From contig JBFMDH010000036.1 in NCBI GenBank assembly GCA_040754075.1, positions 1 to 64,000 on the forward strand: a DNA stretch of 64,000 nt. Reading direction: 5' to 3'. This stretch comes from Acidobacteriota bacterium (GTDB lineage Bacteria; Acidobacteriota; Blastocatellia; UBA7656). The translations under genes and the position numbers were made by a program. Below the pieces are notes generated by a model, which was not told where the DNA came from, did not search any database, and saw only the letters and a program-made list of their open reading frames with translations. Below are positions 13,685-21,014 of the stretch, piece by piece. Within the stretch, counting starts at the first letter, position 1, and every line of letters starts with the position of its first letter.

Positions 13685-15142
13685 ATGAGAACCAGTACGC
13701 GTTTGATTTTGCTATTAACCTTGACCGTAAGTGCCGTCATGGTCATCGCGACCTATCTGACATCGCAAAACAGCGCCCGCTTGCTCGAAGACGCCGCCCG
13801 TGATGAAATTCGCGTTCATGCCATCACTTTGCAGATGGCGCTTGAAGAGGATTACCTGTCGGGGGGTTCGCTTGATGCCCAACGTTTCATCAACCGGCTG
13901 GGTTCGATTGAAAAAATTTATTGCGTGATTCTCTTCGATGACCAAGGCGAAATCTCTATGGTTTCCAACAGCATCAACTCCGAACAGGTCAAAGACCCGC
14001 TCGAAGCGCAACAGGCGATTGCCACCGGAAAGGCTTTTGAAACCGTCAGACAAATCAACAATCAGACGGTTTTTTCGATCATCGCCCCCTTGCAGGTAAA
14101 TGAAAAACGCATCGGCGCGCTTGAGGTGGCGCAACCGATTTCCTTCGTCAACCGGCATATCGCGCAAACCCGCCGGGACACCGTGCTGTTGGGCGCGTTA
14201 ATTTGTCTGGCAATGTTTCTGGTGGTGCTTGCCGTGACGCGCTTCAGTCTGGCAAATCCGATTAAAGAGTTGCTCGGCGGCGCGGTTGCCTTCGGCAGCG
14301 GTGATTTAAGCCATCGCGTTAAAGTCCACAGAGGCGGAAGCGAACTCAAAATTCTCGCCAGCGAATTCAATCGCATGGCTGACCAACTTGCCGAGCAACG
14401 CGCGCGAATTGCAACCGAAGCCGAAGAGCGGTTGCAGCTTGAACGAAAATTGCGCCACAGTGAACGCCTCGCAACCGTCGGGCGACTGGCTGCGGGGGTG
14501 GCACACGAAATCGGCGCGCCATTGCAGGTGATTGACGGACGCGCCAAACAGTTGCAGGAAAGTCTCGATGCCCCGGTTGAAAAACGCCAGCGCAACCTTG
14601 CCATCATTCGCGCTCAGGTTGACCGCATTTCGCGCATCATTCGTAACCTGTTGAATCTGGCAAGACCTTATAATCTCAATCTCAAAAAAATCGATTTGCA
14701 ACAGGCGATTGCTACGGTTGTTGAAGCGTTGGAAACCCAGGCGGCGCGCGCCGGGGTTAGAATCAAACTCGAATCCGAAAATGGCGTGGCGGTTAAAGCC
14801 GATGCCGATTTACTCAATCAGGTGTTGCTCAACATCGCGCTAAACGGCATACAGGCAATGCCCGGAGGCGGGTTTTTATGCATTCGTTATACGGCTGATG
14901 CGGGCATCAAAGATGGCGAGCGGTTCGCTTCGATTCGCATATCCGATAATGGCAGCGGAATTGCAAATGAACATTTATTGCGCATCTTCGACCCGTTCTT
15001 TACCACGAAGGAAGTGGGCAGCGGCACGGGACTGGGGCTTGCCGTTTCGAGCCGCATTGTCGAAGAGCATGGCGGCTGGATAGAAGCCGGAAATAACAGC
15101 GAAGGCGGCGCAACCTTTACGATTTATCTGCCGCAAAATTGA
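13685..15142 (+). CDS. Membrane sensor histidine kinase, NtrB/ZraS-like
   Basis: A first membrane helix (residues about 7-24), a periplasmic sensor of about 140 residues, and a second helix (about 163-186) are followed by HAMP, a HisKA domain with the phospho-acceptor in [10 protein letters not shown] (His near 273), and a HATPase domain with the N box [11 protein letters not shown] and G boxes SDNGSGI and [10 protein letters not shown]. Length is 485 residues. The partner response regulator follows after 9 bp. The sensor domain faces the periplasm and has no obvious PAS or metal motif. Its likely role is to sense an envelope or redox signal, in line with the kinds of genes behind nearby sigma-54 promoters. 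Confidence 0.95.
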
Positions 15143-15151
15143 AAGACCATT

Positions 15152-16522
15152 ATGAACCCAAGAATATTGATAGCCGAAGACGACGCCGATTTACGCGATT
15201 TGTTGCAGGACGTGCTCGAAGACTGCGGGTTTGAAACGATTGCCGCGATGGATGGGCGCGCGGCGCTCGTGCATCTCGAACGCCAATCGGAAACCATCGA
15301 TTTGCTCATCACCGATGTCAATATGCCGGGCTTGTCGGGAAGCGATTTGCTTGCCGCAGCGCGCGAAAAACGCAGCGAAATTGCGGTCATCATCATTACG
15401 GCATTCGGCTCGGTCGAACAGGCGGTTGAACTCGTCAAAGCCGGTGCCTTTCAATATCTCACCAAACCGTTTGACACCGATGACTTATTGAAAACCGTTG
15501 AACAGGCGCTCGAACAAACCGCCGCCCAACGCGCCCAGGCAAAACTGAGGCGCGAAATCCCTGCCGCCCCGCAGCGCATCATCGGCGCTTCACGCCCGAT
15601 GCAGGAACTTTTCAAATTGATGCCGCGCGCCGCGCGCAGTGCAAGCACTGTGCTCATCACCGGCGAATCGGGAACCGGCAAAGAACTCGTGGCGCGTTCC
15701 ATTCACGAAATGTCTGAACGCAAAGGCGCATTCGTGCCGGTCAACTGCGCGGCGATTCCTACGGATTTAATCGAAGCCGAACTGTTCGGACACACCGGCG
15801 GGGCTTTTACCGGCGCTAAACAAGCCCGCGCAGGGCTGTTTGAAAGCGCCGAGGGCGGCACTTTGTTTCTTGACGAAATCGGCGAATTGCCGCTCGCTGT
15901 GCAACCCAAACTGTTGCGCGTCCTGCAGGAAGGCACGGCACGGCGCGTTGGCGCAGACCGTGAACGCGAAATCAATGTGCGAGTAATTGCCGCAACCAAT
16001 CGCGACCTTGAAAAAGAGGTTGAGGAAAATCGCTTTCGCGAAGATTTATACTGGCGGTTGAATGTCATTCATCTGCACATTCCGCCGCTCAGAGAACGCC
16101 CCTTCGATATACCGTTATTGGTTGAACACTTCCTTAATAAAATTGCTATGGTCAATCACGCGACCCCAGTGAATGTTTCACCGGAAGCCCTCGCGGTGCT
16201 CACCGCTTATGAATGGCGCGGCAATGCGCGTGAACTGGAAAATGCGCTTGAGCGCGCCGTTGCCTTAGCCGAAGGCACAACGCTTACGCCGGCAGATTTA
16301 CCCGAACGCATCAGAAGCAGCGGACACACGGCGCAACTATTAACCCAGGCGAAAGAAAAACGATTGACCATGTATGAACTGGAACGCGAATACATCCTGG
16401 AAACTTTGCGACTCACCGGCGGCAATAAATCGCGCGCCGCAGAACTGCTCGGCTTCGACCGTCGCACCCTGCATCGCAAACTCGATGAATACCGCGCGCA
16501 AGACCCGAACTTTGAATTGTGA
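15152..16522 (+). CDS. Sigma-54-dependent response regulator (NtrC family)
   Basis: A receiver domain (residues 1-115, phospho-acceptor Asp near 54 in LLITDVNMPG) is followed by a AAA+ domain with Walker A GESGTGKELVARS (near 171), the sigma-54 contact loop GAFTGA (near 220) and Walker B FLDEIGELPL. A Fis-type helix-turn-helix ends the protein (GGNKSRAAELLGFDRRTLHRKL). All elements needed to activate sigma-54 RNA polymerase are intact; length is 456 residues. It lies in an operon with the sensor kinase. Six sigma-54-type promoters in this window are candidate targets, the nearest only 170 bp downstream. Confidence 0.97.
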   Translation: MNPRILIAEDDADLRDLLQDVLEDCGFETIAAMDGRAALVHLERQSETIDLLITDVNMPGLSGSDLLAAAREKRSEIAVIIITAFGSVEQAVELVKAGAFQYLTKPFDTDDLLKTVEQALEQTAAQRAQAKLRREIPAAPQRIIGASRPMQELFKLMPRAARSASTVLITGESGTGKELVARSIHEMSERKGAFVPVNCAAIPTDLIEAELFGHTGGAFTGAKQARAGLFESAEGGTLFLDEIGELPLAVQPKLLRVLQEGTARRVGADREREINVRVIAATNRDLEKEVEENRFREDLYWRLNVIHLHIPPLRERPFDIPLLVEHFLNKIAMVNHATPVNVSPEALAVLTAYEWRGNARELENALERAVALAEGTTLTPADLPERIRSSGHTAQLLTQAKEKRLTMYELEREYILETLRLTGGNKSRAAELLGFDRRTLHRKLDEYRAQDPNFEL

Positions 16523-16584: not shown

Positions 16585-16613
16585 TGTCTCATTCAATCAA
16601 TCAGAGTGAGACA
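16585..16613 (+). promoter_or_regulatory. Candidate activator binding site (inverted repeat)
   Basis: TGTCTCA (16585-16591) and TGAGACA (16607-16613) form an inverted repeat centred about 95 bp upstream of the -24 box at 16693. This is where an NtrC-type enhancer would be. The word TGTCTCA also occurs upstream of the sigma-54 promoters at 19165 (19098-19104) and 37146 (37089-37095). Confidence 0.4.
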
Positions 16614-16692
16614 TTCTGCCTCATCGTCTTCATGCCGCAGTTATAAACTCGCGAGAACTGCCCAAAAATCGAGCGTTTTTCAACCTGCTTAC

Positions 16693-16706
16693 GGCACATC
16701 GGTTGC
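16693..16706 (+). promoter_or_regulatory. Sigma-54-type promoter for the baeRF/TerB operon
   Basis: CGGCACATCGGTTGCC has GG (16693-16694) and GC (16705-16706) exactly 10 bp apart and matches the GGCAC-N5-TTGC core. The expected start is near 16718, about 40 nt before the first ATG at 16759. Confidence 0.65.
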
Positions 16707-16758
16707 CTAATCTCAAGCGTGACGATAGCGAACTCATTAATTAAGTGAAGAGGATGAT

Positions 16759-16962
16759 ATGAAGTCCATACGGTTAATCAAACGCCAGCACGTCGTTCAA
16801 GCTGACACCAAACTCGCCGTTAAAAAGCCTGTACAGGAAAAGCGCGCGGTGAAAAATGCCGTTGAGGTTGTCGGGCAGTGGGCAAAACAGCGCCGTGCCA
16901 GGCAACAACAAAGCGCCCGGCAGATGTTTGCGGCGCTTTTCAGGCAAGCGCAAGTTGAATAA
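16759..16962 (+). CDS. Small basic protein
   Basis: Unrecognised protein of 67 residues, rich in Lys, Arg, Gln and Ala, with a predicted helical C-terminal half (VVGQWAKQRRARQQQSARQM). An AAGAGGA ribosome site sits right before the ATG and a sigma-54-type promoter lies upstream, which is why I consider it real. It is the first gene of the baeRF/TerB-like operon, 37 bp before baeRF. Its positive charge would fit nucleic-acid or ribosome binding, but this is a guess. Confidence 0.65.
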   Translation: MKSIRLIKRQHVVQADTKLAVKKPVQEKRAVKNAVEVVGQWAKQRRARQQQSARQMFAALFRQAQVE

Positions 16963-16999: not shown

Positions 17000-18118
17000 A
17001 TGGAACTCAAAGAATTACAAACGCACATACGAACGCTGGCAACTCTGGATGAAACCGAAGCCCCGGTCATCAGTTGTTATCTCAATCTGGAATCCGACCA
17101 AGCGGGGTTTCGCGCGGCTTTTGATGAGCGGGTGCGCATCTTGAAGAAAAGTTTATCGGCATCCGAGTGGCAAAGCTTCAATGAAGCCTTGAACCGTCTG
17201 GAAGATTATCTTGGCAGCGCATCGTTTACCGAAGCTCAGGGCGCAGCCATCTTTTCCCGAGGCGGCACGCGCAAATTTTTCTTACCGCTACGGTTCCGCG
17301 TGCCGCTACCCAACTGGTTGAGCGTAGATTCGACGCCGAATATTTTTCATCTGGTCGAACTGAAAGACACCTATGCGCGGTTCGTCGTTTTGCTTTCAAC
17401 CGAAGAGAGCGCCCGCATCCTGGAAGTCAATCTCGGCGAAGTCACGGAAACTTTGTGGAAAGAACGCCCGGAACTTCGCAAACGGGTCGGGCGCGAATGG
17501 ACCAAAGAGCATTATCAAAATCACCTGCGCGACCGGCGTTATCAATTCATCAAAGAGAAGATTGAAATGCTCGACCGCTTGATGATTGCGGGCAAACACA
17601 CGCATTTGATTCTGGCGGGCAACCCGCGAATGACCTCACAGATTAAAAACGCCTTGCCCAAGCATCTGGCGATGAAACTCGTCGATACGATTCCCGCATC
17701 CGGCAATGACCGAATTTCGGATGTGGTGGCGGCAACCTTAGCAACTTTTGTTGAACAGGAAGAGCGCGAATCGCTGGCGGTCGTCGAACATTTGCGCCGT
17801 GAAATTCAGACTACCAGGCTTGCGGTTCAAGGCACGCTTGACACTTTGCGGGCGCTTGAACGCGGTCAGGTTGATGTGCTGGTGTTGGCTAAAGATTATG
17901 AACCGGAATCCATCTATCAATCGGAATTCAACGCGCAACAATTTTTCTCTGCCAATTTAAAAGAAGCGATGGTGCGATTTGCCGAACAACAGGGCTGTCA
18001 TATCGAAGTCGTCACCCACAGCGATGTACTCATGCAACTGGGCGGCGTCGGCGCACTTTTGCGTTATGCCCTGCCCGAACAGGCGCAGTTTCAGGTGCAA
18101 ACCAGCAAGGTCGCTTAA
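17000..18118 (+). CDS. baeRF-family protein (bacterial eRF1-like)
   Basis: Resembles the bacterial homologues of archaeal/eukaryal release factor eRF1 (baeRF, probably family 10). The N-terminus reads LRTLATL...VISCYLNLE, and the C-terminus ends in an eRF1-domain-3-like motif LGGVGALLRYALPEQ. Length is 372 residues. Such proteins are thought to act on stalled ribosomes or tRNA, like Vms1, and often lie with stress genes. The ATG at 17000 is preceded by GGAAAAG; the upstream open frame overlaps the small basic gene and is discarded. It lies in an operon with the small basic protein and the TerB-like protein under a sigma-54-type promoter. The biochemical activity is inferred from the family only. 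Confidence 0.85.
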   Translation: MELKELQTHIRTLATLDETEAPVISCYLNLESDQAGFRAAFDERVRILKKSLSASEWQSFNEALNRLEDYLGSASFTEAQGAAIFSRGGTRKFFLPLRFRVPLPNWLSVDSTPNIFHLVELKDTYARFVVLLSTEESARILEVNLGEVTETLWKERPELRKRVGREWTKEHYQNHLRDRRYQFIKEKIEMLDRLMIAGKHTHLILAGNPRMTSQIKNALPKHLAMKLVDTIPASGNDRISDVVAATLATFVEQEERESLAVVEHLRREIQTTRLAVQGTLDTLRALERGQVDVLVLAKDYEPESIYQSEFNAQQFFSANLKEAMVRFAEQQGCHIEVVTHSDVLMQLGGVGALLRYALPEQAQFQVQTSKVA

Positions 18119-18164: not shown

Positions 18165-18749
18165 ATGCAGATCAGAGAAGCAATAATTGGCGAATCGCGA
18201 AAACCGCTGGATTATCCATTTCAAAAACATAGCAACGCATTAATAGAAGCGATGAGAGAGAAAATTCAAAGAGAGCAGGAGTTGCAGGAACTGGCGCAGC
18301 TTGCGGGCATTCGCGATACGGAATCGCTCCGTTTGTTGCAAGCCTTAGGTTACACACGCGACACGGTTGCGCTGTTGCCGCTGACGCCACTGGTGCGCAT
18401 AGCATGGGCGGAAGGGCGCGTATCGAAAACCGAGCGCGATTTAATTCTGGCAATTGCCAGGTCGCGCGGCATTGATCAAGAGACGCTGGCGTATGACCTG
18501 CTATGTGTCTGGTTGGAGGAACGTCCGGCGGAGCAATTTCTGGAATCATCTTTACGATTATTTGTCGAGCAGGTGAAAAGATTGCCGCCCGAAGTTCGCA
18601 ACCTGAACGAACGCGAACTGGTATCGAATTGCACGCGCGTTGCCGAGGCTTCAGGGACGATTGTCGGGTTTATCAAATCCAGCAGTCGGATTTGTAAAGA
18701 AGAGCGTGAAATGCTCAAACGCATCAACAAAGAATTGAGTTCGAGTTAA
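18165..18749 (+). CDS. TerB-like protein
   Basis: All-helical protein of 194 residues with a TerB-like core (VRIAWAEGRVSKTERDLILAIARSRGID), the pattern of the tellurite-resistance TerB family and its relatives. The acidic metal-binding positions of TerB are only partly clear. No signal peptide or membrane helix is seen. The gene follows baeRF by 46 bp, and the operon ends at a strong hairpin at 18773. TerB-like proteins take part in membrane-associated stress responses, and the pairing with baeRF fits a stress module. Confidence 0.75.
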   Translation: MQIREAIIGESRKPLDYPFQKHSNALIEAMREKIQREQELQELAQLAGIRDTESLRLLQALGYTRDTVALLPLTPLVRIAWAEGRVSKTERDLILAIARSRGIDQETLAYDLLCVWLEERPAEQFLESSLRLFVEQVKRLPPEVRNLNERELVSNCTRVAEASGTIVGFIKSSSRICKEEREMLKRINKELSSS

Positions 18750-18839: not shown

Positions 18840-19133
18840 TCCGGGCATTTTCCCCATTCAATCATCAGAACTGCTTGCGATGGATTTCGGTTGAGAGCGT
18901 GGTTCAAGCCGGTAATTCCCAACGACGCGCTCATAAACCGCCGGTTCAACAAACGGTTTTGCGAGCCGCGCTGATTTCCAACGCCTCATTCAACCTGTCG
19001 ATTGAAAAATGCCCGGAAGTCGAGCCAGCAGCTCTGAGAAGGATTCGCAGGCGGCGATGTGATGTTGCTCAAGCTTGTCACGCCACTGTGACATATTGTC
19101 TCAGTGGTTTTATGAAGAAGGTTAAAACCCCGC
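18840..19133. other. Gene-free stretch with a 10-bp hairpin
   Basis: No supportable gene. An open frame over 18767-19147 has no ribosome site and runs through the terminator. The only structure seen is CCACTGTGAC (19083-19092) with GTCTCAGTGG (19098-19107). It contains the TGTCTCA word and lies about 60-80 bp upstream of the sigma-54 promoter at 19165, so it could be an activator site. Confidence 0.4.
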
Positions 19134-19161
19134 AAAAAAGCCTGTAAAATCAGGCTTTTTT
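19134..19161. terminator. Bidirectional intrinsic terminator
   Basis: AAAAAAGCCTG (19134-19144) and CAGGCTTTTTT (19151-19161) form a perfect stem with a 6-nt loop, with A and T runs on the two sides. It ends just before the sigma-54-type promoter at 19165 and would insulate it from upstream transcription. Confidence 0.85.
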
Positions 19162-19164
19162 CAT

Positions 19165-19178
19165 GGCACAGAGGTTGC
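19165..19178 (+). promoter_or_regulatory. Sigma-54-type promoter for a gene-free transcript
   Basis: TGGCACAGAGGTTGCC has GG (19165-19166) and GC (19177-19178) 10 bp apart, matching both consensus boxes. There is no convincing gene for more than 500 bp downstream on this strand, only stem-loops and a terminator. Confidence 0.65.
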
Positions 19179-19189
19179 CGTTGTGACTT

Positions 19190-19534
19190 ATGTGACGCTG
19201 ACTGTGTGATTCAGGAGAAGTCGCACAGAAAGCAAGACGCGCTTCCCGCATGCCTGCATATGGCGCGTCTTGAATTTCAGGCGCGCGGTTGACGAGCGGT
19301 CCTGCCGCGCGCCCTCTATCGCAGAAGCGAGTTTTGCAGAAGGTACAAATTGTGAGGACGACAGCCTGCACCGAAGGTCACAATTTTGAAGCCGCTTGCA
19401 TCTATTGCGTCACGCTTATGAAACGTGAAGAAACCAAACTCAAGCCGGGGAAGGTTAACCAGTTTAAGAATGTGTAATCACCATAACGCCTAATCCCAGC
19501 AGGTTGGCAGTGCCTGCAACCTGCTGGCTTTTTT
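19190..19534 (+). ncRNA. Candidate sigma-54-controlled small RNA
   Basis: A transcript starting about 12 bp after the sigma-54 box and stopping at the terminator at 19497-19534 would be about 345 nt. It contains three successive stems: AAGACGCGC/GCGCGTCTT (19234-19242, 19263-19271), GGCGCGCGG/CCGCGCGCC (19280-19288, 19305-19313) and AAATTGTGA/TCACAATTT (19347-19355, 19378-19386). An open frame at 19289-19477 starts with TTG inside the second stem, lacks a ribosome site and encodes an unremarkable 62 residues, so a noncoding role is more likely. The 5' and 3' ends are predictions. A small protein encoded late in the transcript cannot be ruled out. Confidence 0.5.
19497..19534 (+). terminator. 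Intrinsic terminator of the candidate small RNA
   Basis: CAGCAGGTTG (19497-19506) pairs with CAACCTGCTG (19517-19526), followed after two bases by six T residues. Confidence 0.85.
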
Positions 19535-19609: not shown

Positions 19610-19682
19610 CTTGAAGGATTGGGAGAGTCCTTCAAGTTTCCAACCCCTTGTCGTGAACTTCCCGGCAAGGGGTTATTTTTTT
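19610..19682 (+). terminator. Second hairpin pair with intrinsic terminator
   Basis: CTTGAAGGA/TCCTTCAAG (19610-19618, 19628-19636) is followed by AACCCCTTG/CAAGGGGTT (19642-19650, 19666-19674) and an A then seven T residues. It points along the plus strand, so it ends either read-through from the candidate small RNA or a second short transcript of 100-150 nt. The converging DUF1990 gene ends at 19696. Confidence 0.7.
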
Positions 19683-20289: not shown

Positions 20290-20373
20290 AAATCACTCTG
20301 AAAGGAATTATAGCGAGCGCGTTGGAAAAAATAAGAAATTGACTTCGTACAAGGGTTGTTTTACCGTTTTGCC

Positions 20374-20613
20374 ATGATTGAAGTCACCATAGAAGAAGCC
20401 AAAGCGCAATTATCAGGACTCTTGCAGCGTGTCAGTATGGGCGAAGATGTAATTATTTGTGAAGGCGGCAAAGCCATCGCCAAACTTGTCACAACCCAAC
20501 AACGCCCGCGCCGAAAACTCGGCGAAGACGCTGGCAAAGGCTGGGTGGCTGACGATTTTGATGCGCCACTGCCTGATGATATACAAGCCTACTTCGAGGG
20601 ACGCGGCGAGTGA
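20374..20613 (+). CDS. Antitoxin, Phd/YefM type
   Basis: An 79-residue protein starting MIEVTIEEAKAQLSGLLQRV, the typical N-terminal DNA-binding fold of Phd/YefM antitoxins, with an acidic C-terminal tail (DDFDAPLPDDIQAYFEGRG) that would wrap the toxin. The ATG at 20374 is preferred over an upstream frame opening at 20356. The last four bases overlap the GTG start of the PIN toxin, so the two are translationally coupled. It probably represses its own promoter. Confidence 0.92.
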   Translation: MIEVTIEEAKAQLSGLLQRVSMGEDVIICEGGKAIAKLVTTQQRPRRKLGEDAGKGWVADDFDAPLPDDIQAYFEGRGE

Positions 20614-21014
20614 AAATATTGATAGATACTCAAAGTTTTCTGTGGTTTTTTCTGGAACCTCATAAACTTGGCAATGATGGAAAAGATGCGCTGACGGATA
20701 CGAACAATGAATTATACCTGTCAGCAGCGCGCGCTTGGGAAATCTCAATAAAGTATGGGCTTGGTAAAATAGCTCTGCCTGAACCGCCGGATATTTATCT
20801 CCCCAAAAAACTACTTAGCGCGGGTATAATTGGTTTTCCAATAGAATTTCATCATGTTCTCGCCGTTTATTCCTTGCCGCTGATTCACAAAGACCCGTTT
20901 GACCGATTAATTATTGCTCAAACCAAAATTGAATCGCTCACCCTTCTAACGGCAGACCCAATTATGCTCAAATATACTTCGGATTTCATCTGGAGCGCGA
21001 AACCCAACCCTTAA
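20610..21014 (+). CDS. PIN-domain toxin (VapC-like)
   Basis: Predicted magnesium-dependent ribonuclease of 134 residues. The PIN acidic residues are visible: Asp in ILIDTQSFLW, Glu in RAWEISIKYGLGKI, and the HKDPFDRLIIAQ motif with Asp. It belongs to the subgroup (YhjJ/HigB-like VapC) usually paired with Phd-type antitoxins. It starts with GTG, overlapping the antitoxin stop as GTGA. A stop follows at 21012-21014. RNA targets are unknown. Confidence 0.92.
   Translation: MKILIDTQSFLWFFLEPHKLGNDGKDALTDTNNELYLSAARAWEISIKYGLGKIALPEPPDIYLPKKLLSAGIIGFPIEFHHVLAVYSLPLIHKDPFDRLIIAQTKIESLTLLTADPIMLKYTSDFIWSAKPNP

Follow-up and report, generated by a model that had tools for sequence, protein, structure and literature searches.

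The stretch of DNA analysed here, hereafter referred to as the window, comprises 64,000 nucleotides, positions 1-64,000 of contig JBFMDH010000036.1 from the Acidobacteriota bacterium GCA_040754075.1 (lineage Blastocatellia, UBA7656). The genome of this bacterium (G000) is 7.58 Mb and the window is its contig 36. The window contains the genes of a sensor histidine kinase and of an NtrC-type response regulator. Three genes, which encode a small basic protein named p67, a release-factor-like protein of baeRF family 10 and a conserved protein of 194 amino acids, separate the regulator gene from the segment 19190-19534, which is proposed to encode a non-coding RNA (Table 1). Further downstream, region 20356-21014 encodes a Phd/YefM-type antitoxin, recognised by a weak match below the Pfam cut-off, paired with a PIN-domain toxin. 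Here, the RNA segment and its surroundings were compared with a set of 162 genomes of the class, and blastn searches with the RNA stretch were also run in 58 genomes.

Table 1 Features of the window around the proposed RNA gene.
Feature	Position	Strand	Basis or remark
Sensor histidine kinase (HAMP, HisKA, HATPase_c)	13685-15142	+	Domain matches
NtrC-type response regulator, proposed to activate the RNA promoter	15152-16522	+	Orthologs, shared sites
Related activator-type half-sites, TGTCTCA...TGAGACA, before the p67/baeRF promoter	16585-16613	+	15/26 against the full consensus, weaker
Sigma-54 box CGGCACATCGGTTGCC before p67	16692-16707	+	Sequence
p67, small basic protein (RLIKR...ARQMFAALF)	16759-16962	+	No Pfam match
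baeRF family 10 release-factor-like protein	17000-18118	+	Longest frame begins at 16856, likely start at 17000
194-aa conserved protein, last gene before the RNA	18165-18749	+	Sequence; no Pfam match
Upstream activator site TTGTCACGCCACTGTGACATATTGTCTCA, subsites TGTCAC / GTGACA / TGTCTC	19075-19103	+	24/26 against the site consensus
Insulating terminator hairpin, symmetric, 11 bp	19134-19161	.	Between activator site and promoter
Sigma-54 promoter TGGCACAGAGGTTGCC	19164-19179	+	Sequence
Proposed non-coding RNA, about 345 nt	19190-19534	+	Fold, G001 relative, no coding conservation
Hairpin H1, conserved loop CAGGAGAA	19202-19228	+	Fold, G001 comparison
Hairpin H2, perfect 10-bp stem CAAGACGCGC	19233-19272	+	Almost identical in G001
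Hairpin H3, perfect 9-bp stem GGCGCGCGG	19280-19313	+	Fold, G001 comparison
Perfect 9-bp stem AAATTGTGA/TCACAATTT	19347-19386	+	In the less structured 3' half
Intrinsic terminator, 11-bp stem and U tract	19496-19534	+	Sequence

Promoter, terminators and activator site

The sigma-54 box of the proposed RNA gene has the exact GG-N10-GC spacing, and its sole mismatch to the consensus is the last base. Just upstream of it, the arms AAAAAAGCCTG and CAGGCTTTTTT form a perfect 11-bp stem. The terminator at the other end of the segment also has a perfect 11-bp stem, made from CCAGCAGGTTG and CAACCTGCTGG and followed by CTTTTTT. A preliminary description of this DNA had listed these three elements, as a clean sigma-54 box at 19165, an insulating terminator at 19134-19161 and a strong intrinsic terminator at 19497-19534, and all of them were found, the first and the last with the slightly different limits of Table 1. 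Terminators like the upstream one occur elsewhere in the same genome (L004). Two further hairpins are located at 19610-19681, 3' of the RNA terminator; the last of these, AACCCCTTG.../CAAGGGGTT, is followed by a T run and may be a back-up terminator.

By itself, the pattern TGGCAC-N5-TTGC is not rare, with 41 occurrences in the genome of origin against 18 for the reversed pattern, and the number of sigma-54 boxes with two or fewer mismatches in the window equals the chance expectation. A promoter with 93% identity to that of the RNA over 28 bases is found in genome G009 (contig C54; L002 1501-1528). There it serves the gene of a 304-aa protein, and the 194-aa neighbour protein is missing from that genome.

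The activator site, which consists of three subsites, was combined with the box in the pattern TGTCNC-N15-TGTCNC-N42..71-GGC-N7-TTGC, which was searched for in the 162 genomes. There were 14 matches, and 4 for a reversed control pattern. The only match in the genome of origin is the RNA promoter. Five others lie within about 5 kb of orthologs of the regulator, in four genomes, and the remaining 8 are of low complexity or scattered. A scored scan was also made of 0.66 Mb of fetched loci, in which a site of at least 17 of 26 together with a box of at least 9 was considered strong. Such combinations occurred only in the window and at the loci of regulator orthologs and were absent from the reversed control; the site consensus was derived partly from the sites that it scores, so that the scan is not fully independent, while the reversed control is.

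About 25 class genomes have an ortholog of the regulator, 61-79% identical to it and in nearly all cases accompanied by its kinase; the closest named orthologs belong to acidobacterial metagenome bins. Several of these loci have sigma-54 boxes preceded by the same site at a similar distance, for example TTGTCCCACCACTGAGGCATCTTGTCCCA in G027. Because the combination of site and box is unique in the genome of origin, and because the strong matches in relatives adjoin regulator orthologs, it is very probable that the adjacent regulator activates the RNA promoter. Placing the RNA under the same stress control, as had been suggested previously, is strengthened by the site that its promoter has in common with promoters around the regulator orthologs.

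It could be argued that there is nothing specific at this locus and that a chance sigma-54 box lies amid ordinary terminators and GC-rich hairpins. Boxes of this kind are common, terminators are found everywhere, and relaxed scans also yield boxes with poor activator sites. However, the strength of the activator site and its specificity to the regulator loci speak against this, as does the covariance match in genome G001, described below, which is reciprocal and collinear with promoter and terminator. We therefore regard a chance arrangement as very unlikely.

In relatives, the likely targets of the regulator are the genes of a beta-carbonic anhydrase (Pro_CA), of a SulP-type transporter (Sulfate_transp), of a 126-aa protein and of p67. 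At loci L101, L102, L103, L104 and L124, the kinase/regulator pair appears to govern beta-carbonic anhydrase and SulP-type transporters, which suggests that its regulon in relatives is bicarbonate/CO2-related. Strongly structured leaders separate the sigma-54 promoter from the beta-carbonic anhydrase gene at L101 (9228-9496, minus strand), L102 (3512-3648) and L104 (1288-1380, minus strand). The L101 leader has a fold z-score of -10.9 and some of these leaders contain terminator-like hairpins; regulation of the beta-carbonic anhydrase genes through their leaders is possible.

Fold, coding potential and a homologous RNA

The start of the predicted RNA was placed 12 nt past the -12 element and its end was set at the U tract. 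The segment 19190-19536 folds with -130.2 kcal/mol (z-score -4.0), and none of 100 shuffled sequences was as stable. This excess of stability is uneven: 120-nt segments across 19300-19479 are no better than shuffled sequences, so that the structure sits in the 5' part and in the terminator. The 5' part can be described as three consecutive hairpins, H1 to H3. The three perfect 9-bp stems of the preliminary description are all present, but the one at 19233-19272 has 10 bp; the other two have 9 bp.

A forward frame of 62 amino acids (19289-19477) has a codon score of -0.01, which is intermediate between genes (5th percentile of gene stretches, -0.04) and wrong frames (75th percentile, -0.001). 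A 73-aa reverse frame likewise has an intermediate codon score. A tblastn search of the 162 class genomes with the 62-aa frame gave no credible relative, the best E-value being 0.008, and the frame was rejected as a gene for this lack of conservation. The stretch, previously described as gene-free, indeed has no supported open reading frame. The transcript might still serve a small protein, encoded by the 62-aa frame or by a 19-aa frame from 19418, behind a long structured leader. The intermediate codon score would agree with this, as would the weakly structured 3' half, which a coding stretch might have. However, besides the result of the tblastn search, the possible starts have no clear ribosome-binding site and the relative of the RNA in G001 has no frame that matches the 62-aa one, which makes a small-protein transcript quite unlikely.

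Strict and permissive searches of the RNA stretch against Rfam gave no family that reached the cut-off. Using blastn at default sensitivity against the 58 and the 162 genomes, no relative of the RNA was found; the matches returned were the genome of origin itself, terminator look-alikes and the promoter shared with G009. The 194-aa neighbour protein was tried as a route to relatives, and it is missing from the family of the source organism and has no match in the named genome collection. A covariance model was then built on the 5' domain (19200-19332) and run on the 162 class genomes. It identified one full-length relative, at 1190-1064 on the minus strand of contig 55 of G001, a genome of a different genus in the same family (E-value 5.7e-6, 37.9 bits). 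The next match in any other genome has 25 bits and the minus strand of the window itself has 27.6 bits, GC-rich hairpins being a source of background scores in this model. Outside G001, the reverse model, built from its RNA, matched the window alone across the 162 genomes (E-value 1.8e-5). Neither model revealed an additional relative at the regulator-ortholog loci or in the other examined genera of the family. Of the weaker matches, that in G144 was followed up; it appears to lie in protein-coding sequence and was rejected.

The G001 relative starts just past a sigma-54 box, TGGCACAGGCATTGCA, and ends in a terminator; its fold has a z-score of -5.4. Sensitive blastn aligned it to the window with 64% identity over 123 nt, starting at the sigma-54 box. 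It has three hairpins in the same order, the same H1 loop and the linker TTGATTTTTAGGCGCG, which is TTGAATTTCAGGCGCG in the window. Among 12 changed pairs, 10 can still pair, with 9 double changes, which corresponds to a binomial p of about 0.0016 if the two sides change independently, for two sequences whose alignment was fitted to the hairpins. In H1, six pairs differ by double changes and two are broken, H3 has three double changes, and H2 has one A-U pair replaced by G-U, its lower stem being nearly identical in every letter. Compensatory changes, which the preliminary description had proposed to look for, are thus seen in H1 and H3 in this one relative. For the stem at 19347-19386, no counterpart was recognised in G001, and the comparison therefore backs no more than the 5' domain and the existence of a terminator. 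A long-range 5'-3' helix in the fold of the window RNA was not reproduced when G001 was folded from its inferred start, and was discarded. Taken from two sequences, the case for a conserved RNA structure is moderate, not strong. The folded relative behind a sigma-54 box, its compensatory changes and the lack of coding conservation in the 62-aa frame, which the preliminary description had named as a further check, largely support the predicted non-coding RNA of about 345 nt.

G001 has no close ortholog of the regulator (best E-value 6.8e-108, in the range of paralogs), and its activator-site match scores only 16, which is the maximum of the control. For these two reasons, the RNA of G001 may answer to another activator.

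p67 and predicted sequence-unrelated RNAs

Small basic proteins of the LIKR...FAALF family, which has no Pfam match, were found in 61 of the 162 class genomes at an E-value of 0.05 or better. In addition to p67 of the window, members are located at L215 (1950-2144, minus strand) and L104 (6507-6701), and the genome of origin has a paralog at L246 (G000 C7:34740-34922, minus strand). Several genes of this family are preceded by their own sigma-54 box. Other p67 loci were considered as sites of further RNAs and rejected, the second sigma-54 boxes there preceding short protein genes.

The RNA of G001 lies downstream of a p67 homolog on the same strand, and near a MoxR ATPase gene homologous to one that adjoins the kinase gene of the window. 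In G049, the p67 gene is followed by a sigma-54 promoter with an activator site, a predicted non-coding transcript of about 95 nt and a terminator (L104 7385-7482; fold z-score -6.0). The order of p67 and then a non-coding RNA is therefore seen in three genera, those of the window, G001 and G049. G046 has a similar promoter with a weaker site (16), about 185 nt that are apparently non-coding, and a strong terminator (L103 3914-4101, minus strand; fold z-score -4.7). With both covariance models, the RNAs of G049 and G046 have no detectable homology to that of the window; what the three have in common is their layout and control.

The promoters of this regulator in relatives often precede protein genes by way of structured leaders, of which that of L101 is an example, and structure is lacking in the 3' half of the RNA of the window. 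Both observations would fit what is left of a protein gene driven by sigma-54, of which promoter and structured leader survive and the coding part has decayed or been lost. Such a remnant is nevertheless improbable, as the terminator is intact, the G001 relative is also non-coding and has kept the hairpins, and a non-coding RNA follows p67 in three genera. A wider proposal is that, in this group of acidobacteria, the kinase/regulator pair habitually drives sequence-unrelated non-coding RNAs and structured leaders in addition to its protein targets, that p67 is a partner of the RNA, and that RNA, p67 and release-factor-like protein form a new translation stress unit; we hold this to be unlikely, and mention it as a speculation.

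Proposed function and comparison with known systems

Based on these comparisons, 19190-19534 probably encodes a regulatory RNA that depends on sigma-54, is controlled by the two-component system and most likely acts in trans. Sequence comparison supports the promoter, the shared activator site, the non-coding nature, the conserved 5' structure and the terminator, and from these we infer transcription, the exact ends and any action in trans. In the proposed mechanism, the kinase/regulator pair (13685-16522) would sense a signal, and the activated regulator would bind the three-subsite site and open the sigma-54 promoter. RNA polymerase would then make an untranslated RNA composed of H1 to H3, a less structured 3' segment and the intrinsic terminator, while the upstream terminator would shield the gene from read-through. 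The RNA would most likely act on mRNAs in trans, either through base pairing or because it holds an RNA-binding protein, and would provide post-transcriptional control within a regulon to which p67 and the release-factor-like protein also belong. In its 3' segment, where structure is weak, it could pair with mRNAs or be a binding site for Hfq.

The H1 loop resembles a ribosome-binding site or a site for CsrA. That the RNA serves as a decoy of RNA-binding proteins of CsrA or Hfq type, as RsmY/Z or CrcZ do, and not as a base-pairing RNA, would be compatible with this loop, a GGA in a hairpin loop that is identical in both genera, and with a layout like that of CbrAB-CrcZ. However, CsrA (PF02599) was found in 0 of 19 genomes, those of the source and of 18 relatives, in a search that detected it in E. 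coli, B. subtilis and T. maritima, and a long A-rich array of CrcZ type was not seen by eye. A CsrA decoy was rejected as unlikely, and a decoy of either type is less unlikely than the other alternatives, though still doubtful.

Between regulator and RNA lies the gene of a baeRF family 10 protein, and a published analysis considers proteins of this family potentially active as peptidyl hydrolases (PMC6514570). It is therefore plausible, though speculative, that the regulatory RNA acting in trans has a part in translation under stress. What results is a regulator with a probable binding site and, in relatives, likely targets, together with an RNA candidate whose predicted ends and structure are precise enough for experiments. 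In a literature collection, a full-text search combining acidobacteria, sigma-54 and small RNA found one review, which was unrelated, and Rfam has no family for this RNA.

The layout can be compared with that of CrcZ/CrcY/CrcX of the Pseudomonadaceae, under the CbrA-CbrB system. There, a non-coding RNA of about 407 nt comes from a sigma-54 promoter that is activated by CbrB, an NtrC-type regulator encoded adjacent to it whose binding site consists of three short phased subsites (PMC8395346, PMC8871633, PMC6296734). The window likewise has a sigma-54 promoter for a proposed non-coding RNA near the gene of an NtrC-type regulator, and three subsites in the activator site. It differs in that its RNA has no Rfam match and no A-rich run of CrcZ type noticed by eye, belongs to another phylum and is three genes away from the regulator. 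NrsZ of Pseudomonas, an RNA of about 226 nt located just downstream of ntrC, depends on sigma-54 and NtrC (PMC8395346). It is similar in being a sigma-54 RNA near the gene of an NtrC-type regulator, and the NrsZ family is characterised by control through NtrB/NtrC when nitrogen is limiting. However, no sequence or Rfam relation to it was seen, three genes separate regulator and RNA in the window, and the activator site and the targets differ, the latter being carbonic anhydrase, SulP-type transporter and p67 in relatives, not nitrogen genes.

GlmY of E. coli and the Qrr RNAs of Vibrio also have sigma-54-type promoters that are activated by NtrC-type response regulators. The window RNA resembles them in this type of promoter and regulator, and differs in structure, partners and phylum, again with no Rfam match. 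Background on GlmY/GlmZ is given in PMC7073468. As far as its sequence allows, the window RNA can be placed among the sigma-54/two-component small RNAs, not as a member of CrcZ/NrsZ, and it suggests that the design of these two, a two-component system with its own nearby sigma-54 RNA, also occurs far from Pseudomonas.
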